From Deltaproteobacteria bacterium (lineage in GTDB: Bacteria > Desulfobacterota > DSM-4660 > Desulfatiglandales > HGW-15): a stretch of 45,672 nt of DNA. The stretch's first letter is position 1. Each line of letters begins with the position of its first letter. The position numbers and the translations under genes were made by a program. The notes beneath the pieces are model-generated. The model was not told where the DNA came from. It did no database searches and saw only the letters and a list, made by a program, of their open reading frames with translations. Location: contig JAFDHO010000008.1 of the NCBI GenBank assembly GCA_019308745.1, forward strand, positions 1 through 45,672, written 5' to 3'. Shown here piece after piece: positions 6,381 through 45,341 of the stretch.

Positions 6381-7607
6381 ATGAAAGTCCTTTGCAGCAA
6401 ATGCAGGAAAGACTATTCCCAGGGCACCATGGGACGCTGCCCCTCCTGTGACGGCATCCTGCGGCCCGAGTATCCGGACGGGGCGGTGAGGAAGCTCCGG
6501 GACATTATCCCGGGGCCTGGAATTGACAGGTACACGGGCCTGTTCCCCCTGGAGGGGGCCGTGCCTTGCCTGGGGGAGGGGGATACCCCTCTCATCGGAT
6601 CCAGAAGGATAGGGCCGGCCATGGGTTTGAGGCGCCTTTGTTTCAAGGTCGAGGGCTGCAACCCCAGCGGATCTTTCAAGGACCGGGGCGGGGCCCTGGC
6701 CGCCGGGCTGGCCCTTGAAAGGGGACTCAAGGGGATCATCACGGCATCTTCGGGAAACGCTGCGGCGTCGATTTCCGCTTACAGTGCTGCCGCGGGCCTG
6801 GAATGCCTCATACTCATGGAGCCGGGCAGCCCCCCGAACAAGATCAGGCAGACCCTTGCCACGGGAGCCACTGTCATACCCGTTGACGGAGTCTTTGACC
6901 ACGGGCCGGAGGCGATCGGCAGCCTCATGCTACGGCTCGCAGAGGCCCTGGATTACTACCCCGCCTTGGTGTGGGCGCCGGTCAACCCCTACATATTGGA
7001 AGGGGTCAAGACCATGTCCTACGAGATCGTGGCCCGCCTGGGAAAGGCCCCGGACCTGGTGATCTGCCCTGTAGGGGGCGGGGACATGCTGGCGGGGCAG
7101 TGGCGGGGTTACCTGGAACTCAAGAGGGCAGGCCTCATAGATCGCCTGCCCAGGATGATCGGTGTCCAGTCCTCTTCTGCCCCGCCCCTCGTGGAGGCCT
7201 TCCGCTCCGGATCCAGGCGTGTTAAGCCCCTGCCATATGCAAGGTCCAGGATCTCGGGAATAAACGTGCCCTTTACCGGAGAGCACGCCCTTGAGGCGGT
7301 CAGAGAATCCGGAGGCATGGTGCTGAGTATTGAGGACGAGGAGGCCCTGGCCCTTCAACAGAAGGTGGCCTTCGATGAAGGCCTCTGGATCGAACCGGTC
7401 TCTGCCGTCCCCCTCGCTGGCCTGAAGGTGCTTTTGGAAAGGGGCGGCGTGGAAAAGGATGACCTGGTGGTGTGTATTATGAGCGGGGCAGGGTTCAAGG
7501 ACAGCAACCTTGCCCACAGTGAGGCAGAAGAGGTATCGAGGCGCAATCCCATGCCCTTTGACATCGAGGCGATAATAGCCGAGGCAAAGGCCCTCAGGGC
7601 TTCTTGA
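6381..7607 (+). CDS. Threonine-synthase-like PLP enzyme with N-terminal zinc ribbon
   Basis: This is a fold-type II PLP enzyme of the threonine synthase/threonine dehydratase group. An N-terminal zinc ribbon is formed by CSKC and CPSC within the first 25 residues. The PLP-lysine motif follows as NPSGSFKDRGGAL, then the phosphate-contacting SSGNAAASI and, near the middle, PVGGGDMLAG. It is about 408 residues long, normal for this family. It starts one base after livF, so it is part of the transporter operon. That link suggests the enzyme acts on the imported compound or a derivative, perhaps by beta- or gamma-elimination or replacement on an amino acid; true threonine synthase activity is only one option. 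The 3' end overlaps the convergent AOR gene by 14 bases. The family call is firm; the exact reaction is not. Confidence 0.78.
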   Translation: MKVLCSKCRKDYSQGTMGRCPSCDGILRPEYPDGAVRKLRDIIPGPGIDRYTGLFPLEGAVPCLGEGDTPLIGSRRIGPAMGLRRLCFKVEGCNPSGSFKDRGGALAAGLALERGLKGIITASSGNAAASISAYSAAAGLECLILMEPGSPPNKIRQTLATGATVIPVDGVFDHGPEAIGSLMLRLAEALDYYPALVWAPVNPYILEGVKTMSYEIVARLGKAPDLVICPVGGGDMLAGQWRGYLELKRAGLIDRLPRMIGVQSSSAPPLVEAFRSGSRRVKPLPYARSRISGINVPFTGEHALEAVRESGGMVLSIEDEEALALQQKVAFDEGLWIEPVSAVPLAGLKVLLERGGVEKDDLVVCIMSGAGFKDSNLAHSEAEEVSRRNPMPFDIEAIIAEAKALRAS

Positions 7608-41869: not shown

Positions 41870-42355
41870 TCAGGCGAATAGGGCCCGGGCCAGAAGACCG
41901 GCTACGGGAGGAAAGATCACCACAGACGAGATCCTCACGGCCATGAAGCGGGGGCCGATGAGGGCCAGTTCAAAGGGCAATTGGCCGATGCCGATGAGGG
42001 CCCATGCCGAGATCAGGGAGACGATGGTCCCTATCCCTGCACCGCCCTGTGCAATGGCCGCGATGATGGGAAGGGCTATGTACGGACCGCCCGGGATCAG
42101 GGCCCCCGCGAGGGTCCCGAGGAGGATTCCACGGAGCCCGGATTCCTCACCGAGCCAGGAGCGTATGATCTCGGGGGGTATGGCCACCTGGATAAGGCCG
42201 GCAACAAGGAAGGCGACCAAGAGGAGAGGGATTACGCCTATCAGCATACTCTTGCCGATGATCAGTCCTCGGACATGGCAATCCCCTCCGCGCCGAAGAG
42301 CGGCAATGAAAAGGGCGATGCCCATTACCAACAGGACGAGAAAGGCGATCAACAT
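41870..42355 (-). CDS. Half-size permease B (DUF318/ArsP-like)
   Basis: A membrane protein of about 161 residues with four or five hydrophobic segments: IAFLVLLVMGIALFIAALRR, IGVIPLLLVAFLVAGLIQVA, a glycine-rich GILLGTLAGALIPGGPYIAL, and two more near the end. The pattern is that of PF03773 permeases (ArsP-like) but only half their length, and the ALIPGGPY turn stands where ArsP has a cysteine motif. It is the companion of the gene at 42459, with which it shares SGLRG...LAGALIPGGPY. The ATG at 42355 is used since membrane sequence starts there; a long leader further upstream is not membrane-like. Function unknown. Confidence 0.65.
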   Translation of the reverse strand: MLIAFLVLLVMGIALFIAALRRGGDCHVRGLIIGKSMLIGVIPLLLVAFLVAGLIQVAIPPEIIRSWLGEESGLRGILLGTLAGALIPGGPYIALPIIAAIAQGGAGIGTIVSLISAWALIGIGQLPFELALIGPRFMAVRISSVVIFPPVAGLLARALFA

Positions 42356-42458
42356 ATGTTCACCCGTAATGCTCCCCGAGCCAAGGACGGCCTGAGCGAC
42401 GCATCTGCCTTTCTCTTGCCTCTTCTGCCATCCTGGTCGCTCCTCCCCACGTCCCGGT

Positions 42459-43019
42459 TCAGAGAGGCTCGCCTGAGACCCTGTCCGGGCCTTGCAGTTC
42501 TCTGATCTGTTCGCGGATCTTGCCGGCAGAGGAGGAAAAGAGGACGTTTGCACCGAGGCCGATTATTATGGGAAAGGCGAGGGTGGCTATGTATCGAATG
42601 AAAGTTATTTCGGGACCCAGGAGGGCCACCTCCAGGGGCAGCCTGCTTATCGTCCAGAGGGATTTTGACACAATAAAGGCCATGACCACCCCAATCTGGG
42701 CACCCGAGATGAGAAAGGTAGCTGCCAGGGGGAAGAAGACGTAAGGCCCGCCCGGTATGAGTGCCCCGGCAAGGCACCCCAGCATCAGACCCCTGAGCCC
42801 GGATTTCGGGCCCAGCCACCGTGATACGGTGTCTTCGGATATGAGTGCCGAGATCAATCCTGCGGTGACAAAGGCGAGAAGAAGGAGGGGCGTGACCTGG
42901 AGGAGCATCTTCCCTCCGATGAGCGTCCCCTTGAGCACGAGGCTCCAACCTCCCTGGATCCAGGCCAGTATGGCCAACAGTATTGCCGAAATGGCAAGCC
43001 CTATGGTGGTTTTCAGCAC
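42459..43019 (-). CDS. Half-size permease A (DUF318/ArsP-like)
   Basis: A 186-residue membrane protein with an N-terminal helix (TIGLAISAILLAILAWI), LLQVTPLLLLAFVTAGLISA, LMLGCLAGALIPGGPYVFFP and two more hydrophobic segments (IGVVMAFIVSKSLW, FPIIIGLGANVLF), then a charged C-terminal tail. It is a paralogue of the gene at 41870, and the two would together make one full-length ArsP-like permease. It begins three bases after the stop of the CysK-CysS fusion gene on the same strand, so the three are one operon. Substrate unknown; a sulphur compound is one guess from context. Confidence 0.68.
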   Translation of the reverse strand: MLKTTIGLAISAILLAILAWIQGGWSLVLKGTLIGGKMLLQVTPLLLLAFVTAGLISALISEDTVSRWLGPKSGLRGLMLGCLAGALIPGGPYVFFPLAATFLISGAQIGVVMAFIVSKSLWTISRLPLEVALLGPEITFIRYIATLAFPIIIGLGANVLFSSSAGKIREQIRELQGPDRVSGEPL

Positions 43020-43022
43020 CCC

Positions 43023-45341
43023 CTACCCCCTTCTCTTTCTCCAGAGCGTCCCCTGTTTGGTGTCGATCAACTCAATGCCCATGTCCATCAGCTCCTGTCG
43101 AATGTTGTCTGCGAGCTCCCAATCCTTGGCCTTTCTGGCCTCATCCCTCCTTCTGATAGATTTTTCTATCCGTTCATCGGCCTCGGGATGTTCGAGATCC
43201 AAGACGCCCAAGACCGAGTTTATGCTGCTCAGTGCGTCCTGTGCCTTCTTCTTTGCTTCCGGGGACAGGCCTTCCTTGCCCATCATGCGATTCATCCTGT
43301 TGGTGAATTCGAACAGTGCGGCAAGGGCCCGTGCTATATTGAGGTCGTCGTCAAGGGATTCCACGAACTTGTGTTTCAGGTCATAGACCGCCTGGTCTAT
43401 CTCGGGGTTGTGTCCGCCGGGTGGGCAGCCATGGAGCTTGTGAACGAATTTGTCCAGGTGGTCGACCGTCTGCCTGGCGATCTCCAGCTTGTCCCAGGAA
43501 AAGTACATGGGTTTCCTGTAATGGCGGCTCAAGAGCCAGTACCTCACGACCCTGCCTTCATAGCCCTTTTCCAGGACACGCCTCAAGGTAAACACATCCT
43601 CATCGGAGTGTATGATGGGTTTCTTCCCTTCAACCATAACCAGTTCATTGTGGAGCCAGTAATTGGCCATGGGTCTTTCCGTAAGGGCACCTGTTATGGC
43701 AATGGCGTTCTCGTGATGGGGGAAGATGAGGTCTGTCCCGCTAGTATGGATATCGTAGGTGCCGCCAAAGAACTTTATCGCGATTGCAGGGCATTCCAGA
43801 TGCCAGCCGGGTCTAACGTTCCCCCACTGGGTCTTGTAGAAGATCCCCTTCTTCAATTCCTTCAGGGTCGACCTTTTGAGCAGCGTAAAGTCGCGCGGGT
43901 CTTCCTTTTCGTACTGATCCAGGTCCACGGTCTTCCCGAGACGGATCTTGTCGAGATCGATCTTCGAGAGCTTGCCGTAGTCTCCGGACCTGGCTATGTC
44001 AAAGTAGACAGAACGCAGCTTCTCATATGCGTATCCCTTTTCCAGCAGTTTCTTCGTGGCACGGATCATGTCATCCACGTAATGACTGGATCTTGGATAG
44101 TCCGATGCCTTCTTGATGTTCAGGGACTCGAGGTCCTTCTGGAATTCCTCATAGTATCTATCCGTAAATTCCTTCAGGGAGACCCCTTCCTTATCAGCCC
44201 CCTCGATTGTTCGGTCATTGAGATCCGTGAGATTCATGACCTGCCTCACGCTGTATCCCTTGAATTCCAGGTAGCGTCTTATTAGGTCTGAGAAGACCAG
44301 GAAGCGGCATTGCCCGACATGGATGCGCCGGCAGAGGGTAGGACCGCAGGAGTACATGGTGACGCTGTCTTCCTGGATGGGGACAAACTCTTCTTTCTTG
44401 CGGGTCAGGGTGTTGTAGAGGGACATGCCGGACTTCCTCTTGACCACGAACAGGGGGGTGCTGAGGTATCTCTCCCCGCCGTCCGGCAAGATCACCACGA
44501 TCCTTCCCTCTTCCATTTCCCGTGCCAGTTTCAGGGCAACCGCCATGGCTGCGCCTGAGCTCATTCCCACGAAGAGCCCCTCTTCCTTTGCCAGCAATCG
44601 GGAGGTATAGTAGGCCTCGTCATCGTCGATATTGAGGATGCGGTCGGCGCGGTCCTTTTCAAATATCCCCGGCCGGTAGGATTCCTTCATGTTCTTCAGT
44701 CCCTGAATCTTGTGGCCCAGATAGGGCTCTACGCCGACGATTTCAATATCCGGCTTGAGTTCTCTGAAACGCCTGGAGAGACCCATCAGTGTCCCGGTGG
44801 TCCCCATGGCACACACGATCTTGTGGAGGTTGCCCCCGGCCTGTTCCCAAATCTCAAGAGCAGTACCGTGGTAATGGGCGATCCAGTTGGATTCGTTGTT
44901 GAATTGGTCTGCAAGCCAGTATGTTTCAGGCTCCTCCCTGATGAGGTTGTAAACGAATTCAATGGCGCCATCCGTCCCCAGGTGGGCAGGGGTGAACTGA
45001 AGTTCGGCCCCCATGGCCCTGAGGATCTTTTTCCTCTCCTCGCTGACCGCCTCGGACATGACCAGGTGGATCCTATACCCCTTGACGGCTGCAACCAAGG
45101 AAAGGCCGATGCCCGTATTGCCGCTGGTGGCTTCAAGGATAATCTTGCCCGCCGTCAGTTCTCCCCTTTCCTCGGCGTCTTCAATCATTCTCAAGGCGGG
45201 CCTGTCCTTTACAGAGCCTCCGGGATTAAAGGATTCAAGCTTGGCCAGGATCTGGACCCTTTTGTTGCTGTTCAGCCTATTGACCGGGACCAGAGGTGTC
45301 CAGCCTATCAAGTCCAATATGTTGTGGTATCCCTTCTTCAT
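43023..45341 (-). CDS. Cysteine synthase fused to a degenerate cysteinyl-tRNA-synthetase-like domain
   Basis: A 772-residue two-part protein. Residues about 1-300 are a complete O-acetylserine-sulfhydrylase domain: PLP lysine K45 in NPGGSVKDRP, SGNTG at 73-77, and PDGGERYLST near the end. Residues about 305-772 are homologous along their length to cysteinyl-tRNA synthetase (CGPT at 332-335, GWHLECPA around C517, FPHHEN at 540-545, and the C-terminal ADNIRQEL...DTKQGTLWR). Key catalytic motifs are changed: HIGH reads HVGQ (341-344), KMSKS reads KPIIH (574-578), and the Glu after HHEN, the probable fourth zinc ligand, is Ala. So aminoacylation is doubtful while cysteine-pocket elements remain. 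The ATG at 45341 follows GGAG. It heads an operon with two half-permeases. Confidence 0.88.
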   Translation of the reverse strand: MKKGYHNILDLIGWTPLVPVNRLNSNKRVQILAKLESFNPGGSVKDRPALRMIEDAEERGELTAGKIILEATSGNTGIGLSLVAAVKGYRIHLVMSEAVSEERKKILRAMGAELQFTPAHLGTDGAIEFVYNLIREEPETYWLADQFNNESNWIAHYHGTALEIWEQAGGNLHKIVCAMGTTGTLMGLSRRFRELKPDIEIVGVEPYLGHKIQGLKNMKESYRPGIFEKDRADRILNIDDDEAYYTSRLLAKEEGLFVGMSSGAAMAVALKLAREMEEGRIVVILPDGGERYLSTPLFVVKRKSGMSLYNTLTRKKEEFVPIQEDSVTMYSCGPTLCRRIHVGQCRFLVFSDLIRRYLEFKGYSVRQVMNLTDLNDRTIEGADKEGVSLKEFTDRYYEEFQKDLESLNIKKASDYPRSSHYVDDMIRATKKLLEKGYAYEKLRSVYFDIARSGDYGKLSKIDLDKIRLGKTVDLDQYEKEDPRDFTLLKRSTLKELKKGIFYKTQWGNVRPGWHLECPAIAIKFFGGTYDIHTSGTDLIFPHHENAIAITGALTERPMANYWLHNELVMVEGKKPIIHSDEDVFTLRRVLEKGYEGRVVRYWLLSRHYRKPMYFSWDKLEIARQTVDHLDKFVHKLHGCPPGGHNPEIDQAVYDLKHKFVESLDDDLNIARALAALFEFTNRMNRMMGKEGLSPEAKKKAQDALSSINSVLGVLDLEHPEADERIEKSIRRRDEARKAKDWELADNIRQELMDMGIELIDTKQGTLWRKRRG

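Follow-up and report, generated by a model that had tools for sequence, protein, structure and literature searches.

HisZ is an inactive paralogue of histidyl-tRNA synthetase (HisRS) that lacks adenylation activity and mediates the inhibition of HisG by histidine (PMC9437257, PMC10795190). A second CysRS in the Desulfobacterales, CysRS* (encoded by cysS*), lacks the anticodon-binding domain of cysteinyl-tRNA synthetase (CysRS) and charges selC* tRNA (PMC7609411). On the biosynthetic side, the cysteine synthases CysM and CysK differ in their substrate loops, that of Escherichia coli CysM containing R210-R211 (PMC9547175), and O-phosphoserine is used by mycobacterial CysM (PMC9547175) but is rejected by the CysM of Campylobacter (PMC9855970). 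Feedback by cysteine normally acts at CysE, the serine acetyltransferase (PMC9547175).

The window analyzed here, a stretch of 45,672 nucleotides from a deltaproteobacterium, includes a gene for a protein in which a CysM-type cysteine synthase is joined to a CysRS-like domain. The open reading frame lies on the minus strand and runs from 45350 (GTG) or 45341 (ATG) to a stop at 43023 with no internal stops, and the sequence GGAG is found 8 nt 5' of the ATG. The features of the gene, with residues numbered from that ATG, are as follows.

43023..45341, minus strand: fusion gene, CysM-type cysteine synthase plus CysRS-like domain, 772 aa from the ATG at 45341
44448..45317, minus strand: cysteine synthase domain of PLP fold type II, residues 12-301 (PALP, TIGR01136, Foldseek)
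45207..45209, minus strand: PLP lysine K48 in GGSVKDR, kept in 117/119 fusions and gapped in 2
44682..44717, minus strand: substrate loop GHKIQGLKNMKE, residues 212-223, CysM-type with a 3-residue insertion
43476..44426, minus strand: CysRS-like catalytic domain, residues 309-625 (Pfam and NCBIfam profiles, structure match)
44346..44348, minus strand: Cys335, equivalent to the zinc ligand Cys28 of E. coli CysRS, kept in 108/119
44310..44321, minus strand: HVGQ (344-347) where CysRS has HIGH, a motif degraded throughout the family
43791..43793, minus strand: Cys520, equivalent to the zinc ligand Cys209 of E. coli, kept in 102/119
43704..43718, minus strand: HHENA (545-549), in which His545 corresponds to His234 (119/119) and Ala549 replaces Glu238 (Glu in 59/119)
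43608..43622, minus strand: KPIIH (577-581) in place of KMSKS, in an unconserved loop
43200..43370, minus strand: DALR_2 helical domain, residues 661-717 (Pfam)
43038..43190, minus strand: CysS_C anticodon-binding-like domain, residues 721-771 (Pfam)

Pfam finds PALP at residues 12-290 (243 bits), tRNA-synt_1e at 322-625 (288 bits), DALR_2 and CysS_C, and the protein passes the NCBIfam models for both cysKM (TIGR01136, 353 bits against a cut-off of 344) and cysS (TIGR00435, 408 bits against 340), while the cysM equivalog cut-off is not reached (369 versus 394 bits). The two halves are joined by a linker of 12 residues in 81 of the 92 fusions in which its length is measurable. An AlphaFold2 model built with 50 family members as input (mean pLDDT 87.9, pTM 0.61) matched CysM (2bhs) with a TM score by target length of 0.95 and the CysRS-tRNA complex (1u0b) over 479 columns with a score of 0.86, both in Foldseek, and the nearest solved structures to the PLP half are of O-acetylserine sulfhydrylase B (OASS-B); at this pTM, contacts between the predicted domains are uncertain. 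We place the N-terminal half in the CysK/CysM family and regard the C-terminal half as a paralogue of CysRS, full-length in fold including the DALR and anticodon domains, that lacks the features by which a functional CysRS or MshC is defined. A preliminary description of this DNA had reported one frame encoding a cysteine synthase and a full-length CysRS homolog at these coordinates, and the reading frame, Pfam and NCBIfam bear this out; that account had left out the minus-strand orientation, the phylum-wide family, the graded and probably repeated decay of HIGH and KMSKS, and the link to the absence of cysE, which are described below.

The fusion is present in 67 of the 85 genomes of the same order, most full-length matches being 53-72% identical, and this conservation means that it is no chance joining. 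It was also found in 146 of 395 genomes drawn evenly across the phylum Desulfobacterota, a count of those listed matches whose open frame is roughly 630-1400 aa in length, as compared to about 500 for canonical ones; many of the sampled genomes are metagenome-assembled, and gene absences among them may reflect assembly gaps. Among the best 80 loci listed, the named relatives are Desulfobacterota (for example Delta proteobacterium NaphS2, Desulfonema magnum, and Desulfosudis oleivorans). On one contig titled Bacteroides sp. SM23_62_1 (LJUQ01000146.1) there is a fusion with 65% identity to the window protein over the part compared, and this is likely a mislabelled or mixed bin and not a transfer. 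No publication describing the fusion was found in the literature searched, a coverage outside which most subscription journals fall.

Nearly all fusion genomes also carry an ordinary cysS. That of the window's own genome (G000:C166) scores 565 bits as compared to 410 for the fusion, and its presence means that the case raised in the preliminary description, of the fusion being the housekeeping CysRS, does not arise here. In one single-contig genome that is 90% complete (G013), a canonical cysS was not found, and besides the fusion only a short CysRS-like protein matched; near relatives have the canonical gene, which may have been truly lost here or may be missing through faulty assembly. Such short CysRS-like proteins, of about 410-450 aa, occur in six genomes (L199-L204 in G013, G014, G024, G063, G066, and G007) and have an HIGN/HVGN-type motif together with KMSKS, no anticodon domain, and a replaced C209 ligand (WNIQDP). 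They were considered as a partner of the fusion and rejected; they are probably CysRS*, even though ARAGORN found no tRNA or selC* near them. Like CysRS*, the fusion adds a further CysRS to those of this broad bacterial group, and it differs from CysRS* in having the CysS_C domain and a joined cysteine synthase.

The PLP half looks catalytically intact, as had been claimed from the window protein alone, with the motifs GGSxKDR, TSGNTGIG, and GTTGT near-invariant across 119 fusions. It shares its fold, catalytic lysine, and a substrate loop with a 3-residue insertion with CysM and O-phosphoserine sulfhydrylases, and differs from them in its attached CysRS-like domain and in having K219-N220-M221 where E. 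coli CysM has R210-R211-W212; it does not resemble the GAG of CysK. The K219-N220 pair and E223 are found in 119 of 119 fusions, within the loop motif GLKNMKE.

The substrate of this enzyme is suggested by the distribution of cysE. In the window's own genome the fusion is the sole CysK/M-type synthase, cysE is absent (TIGR01172 matches at most 44.5 bits), and SerC is present (480 bits). To say that fusion genomes simply lack cysE proved too coarse, as this is the case in 74 of the 146, and the pattern becomes clean only once a separate CysK is considered: in the phylum sample, cysE is absent from 71 of the 74 genomes with no cysteine synthase other than the fusion and is present in 69 of the 72 that have a separate CysK in addition (odds ratio 544, Fisher p = 1e-33, in a test that ignores relatedness). 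Nine families of the sample contain genomes of both kinds, mostly with concordance genome by genome, the exceptions being G054, G176, G209, G222, G390, and G422, and in several genomes the separate CysK is adjoined by or near cysE (for example G067, G068, and G070). This pairing, of cysE absence with a lone fusion and of cysE presence with a separate CysK, is the new observation here. Since CysE accompanies CysK and is missing where the fusion stands alone, the fusion appears to be independent of CysE and O-acetylserine, and the pattern gives no support to O-acetylserine as an obligatory substrate. In 59 of the 249 genomes of the sample that have no fusion, no cysE match with an E value of 1e-35 or better was found either. 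The tRNA-dependent SepRS/SepCysS route was excluded for the order, because none of 48 of its genomes has a SepRS above the TIGR00470 cut-off. The cysE pattern, the presence of SerC, and the loop together make O-phosphoserine the likely substrate, which we infer rather than read from the loop because mycobacterial CysM uses this compound and that of Campylobacter does not.

In the CysRS-like half, the changes reported earlier for the window protein (HVGQ, KPIIH, DFTLLK, DIHTSG, and Ala for the fourth zinc ligand) are all present, and across the 119 aligned fusions the catalytic alteration is a conserved trend. In those fusions without KMS[RK]S/A/D, entropy is 2.91 bits per column in the KMSKS loop and 1.77 in HIGH, relative to a domain mean of 1.59, while the motifs of the amino-acid pocket (CGPT, TDLDD, KxxPRDFTLLKR, RPxWHxEC, DIHTSG, and FPHHEN) are at 0.34-0.74 bits. 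KMS[RK]S/A/D together with H-x-G is retained in 16 of the 119, so that some members may still activate cysteine, and almost none, even of the KMS type, has kept the final His of HIGH. The fusions group in a single clade separate from canonical CysRS (SH-aLRT 99). The best tree, a quick LG+G4 tree with the short paralogues on long branches, has 6 changes in the state of KMSKS, of which 2 are forced by well-supported branches. From these changes, decay of the ATP site was graded and probably occurred repeatedly.

The zinc ligands of CysRS are C28, C209, H234, and E238 in E. coli numbering. The first three are found together in 99 of the 119 fusions, and the other 20 lack at least one of them. 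Both cysteines, which are named in work on CysRS (PMC5660078), have been lost in the loci L158-L164 of families f74, f94, and f42 (VTGPPLD, WHIAS), which retain KxNPRDF[AT]LLKR and FPHLEN; in most members of f74 the fusion is the sole cysteine synthase. Any sensing of cysteine through zinc could not be universal in the family, given these losses. At the C-terminus, R735, R739, W744, D748, R751, and D763 are kept at 97-100% across the fusions, as in canonical CysRS, and correspond to R423, R427, W432, D436, R439, and D451 of E. coli, which we take to be tRNA contacts. Since the pocket and anticodon-domain residues have been kept while the ATP motifs decayed, the domain appears to be under selection, but not for tRNA charging. 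With HIGH and KMSKS lost, the fourth zinc ligand replaced by Ala, and a canonical cysS alongside, the window protein differs from a functional CysRS in each of these respects.

Based on these features, the fusion is proposed to be a CysE-independent cysteine synthase whose dead CysRS half acts as a built-in regulator by binding cysteine or tRNA-Cys, a proposal we regard as evenly balanced between right and wrong. The enzyme would be the cell's main cysteine synthase, running without CysE and most likely converting O-phosphoserine from SerC and sulfide to cysteine. Its C-terminal half would have arisen from a duplicated CysRS with once near-complete catalytic motifs and, in the window lineage, would have lost the ability to form cysteinyl adenylate, without which the fusion could not charge tRNA. 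Making cysteine from O-phosphoserine in the absence of CysE requires another brake, and the retained cysteine pocket and anticodon-domain residues may supply it by binding cysteine (or tRNA-Cys) and adjusting the PLP domain, thereby substituting for the end-product control of CysE. A CysRS pocket that binds cysteine without using ATP would lend itself to use as a gauge and, once joined to the synthase, as a feedback domain. A sensor was among the roles listed in the preliminary description and is the one favored here, with ligand binding and allostery inferred. HisZ is its nearest working parallel, since in both cases a dead synthetase paralogue is linked to an enzyme that takes part in making its cognate amino acid. 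HisZ, however, derives from HisRS, a class II enzyme, and is a separate subunit partnering the first enzyme of its pathway, while in the fusion a class I CysRS is part of a single chain, is joined to the last enzyme, and keeps its anticodon domain, so 'HisZ-like' is an analogy of mechanism and not of membership. Among the points that weigh against the proposal are the absence of Glu238 from the window protein, the zinc-ligand losses and KMS-type members described above, the lack of a conserved cysteine-related neighborhood, and the CysK and CysE that about half of the fusion genomes also have.

Several other readings have to be weighed against feedback by cysteine. In the main rival, the CysRS-like half would bind charged or uncharged tRNA-Cys and tune synthesis to translational demand, as the HisRS-like domain of GCN2 would parallel. 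Such gating would account for the retained C-terminal R, R, W, D, R, and D positions in a domain that otherwise diverges, for the full-length alignment to the CysRS-tRNA complex, and for the persistence of the domain where zinc ligands have been lost, as in L158-L164. The conserved residues may nevertheless be structural, and the C-termini of some fusions are eroded (for example in L134 and L113, which lack the final GT-WR), and tRNA gating is rather unlikely; its switch-like form, in which the dead CysRS would read tRNA-Cys charging or cysteinyl-tRNA to turn O-phosphoserine-dependent synthesis on and off, is judged unlikely. That the CysRS-like half is a structural passenger, a scaffold for folding or oligomerization only, would fit the drift of the ligand sites in some lineages, but few parts of the domain are as well conserved as the pocket motifs and identity in the catalytic domain is 68% among fusions versus 74% among canonical CysRS of the same order, making this distinctly improbable.

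The remaining readings give the CysRS-like half a chemical role. Like MshC, the fusion is a CysRS paralogue outside translation, and a ligase that activates cysteine fed directly by the synthase half and passes it to tRNA or to another amine, the second in line with a ligase role raised in the preliminary description, could draw on the three of four zinc ligands kept in the window protein and on the 16 KMS-type members, which could be bifunctional. MshC, however, makes cysteinyl adenylate, and the window protein and most others have lost the ATP loops with the pocket kept, so a ligase of this type is disfavored. It is further opposed by the replaced His of HIGH, by a score of 182 bits against an MshC equivalog cut-off of 485, and by the canonical cysS in the same genome; adenylation of cysteine by a protein missing the ATP loop is unlikely, and the ligase itself is very doubtful. 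Persulfide or sulfane-sulfur chemistry with cysteine held by the CysRS-like half, also raised earlier, would suit hosts that are probably sulfidic, and CysRS is reported to produce cysteine persulfide by means of its KIIK and KMSK lysines (PMC5660078). These lysines are not kept in the fusions, which have D-R/K-T-I-x-G without KMSK, and such a role is the most remote of those considered.

Neighboring genes do not point to a partner, as no conserved cysteine-related neighborhood, ligase acceptor, or regulator was found near the fusions. In the Desulfobacterales-type context, surE, an HD-domain gene, and tmk precede the fusion, which is followed by an unknown 337-aa protein, and this context looks like housekeeping. 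A family of ∼330-aa proteins with a YFPFTYI N-terminus (for example L125:11662-12672) directly adjoins the fusion on the same strand, downstream at 27 loci and upstream at 4, and one member scanned has no Pfam match. In the window, two half-size open reading frames lie downstream on the minus strand (41870-43019), beginning 4 nt past the fusion stop, the first matching the predicted permease ArsP_1 and the second resembling a similar half; they are not conserved near other fusions. A second PALP gene on the plus strand (6570-7487), with an N-terminal CxxC...CxxC zinc-ribbon-like segment, reads as threonine synthase-like and not as a cysteine synthase.

The fusion poses a hazard for annotation. 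Its score above the curated TIGR00435 cut-off would lead automated pipelines to name it cysS, although it probably does not ligate tRNA, and genomes that carry it might be judged to have no controlled cysteine pathway. The graded decay of the active site offers a natural series leading from synthetase to regulator. If tRNA gating were correct, amino-acid synthesis would be coupled to translational demand within one polypeptide. Cysteine in excess is toxic, and if the sensor proposal is true, the fusion would explain how cysteine is controlled in sulfide-rich cells without CysE and would be the cysteine counterpart of HisZ-HisG in widespread anaerobes.
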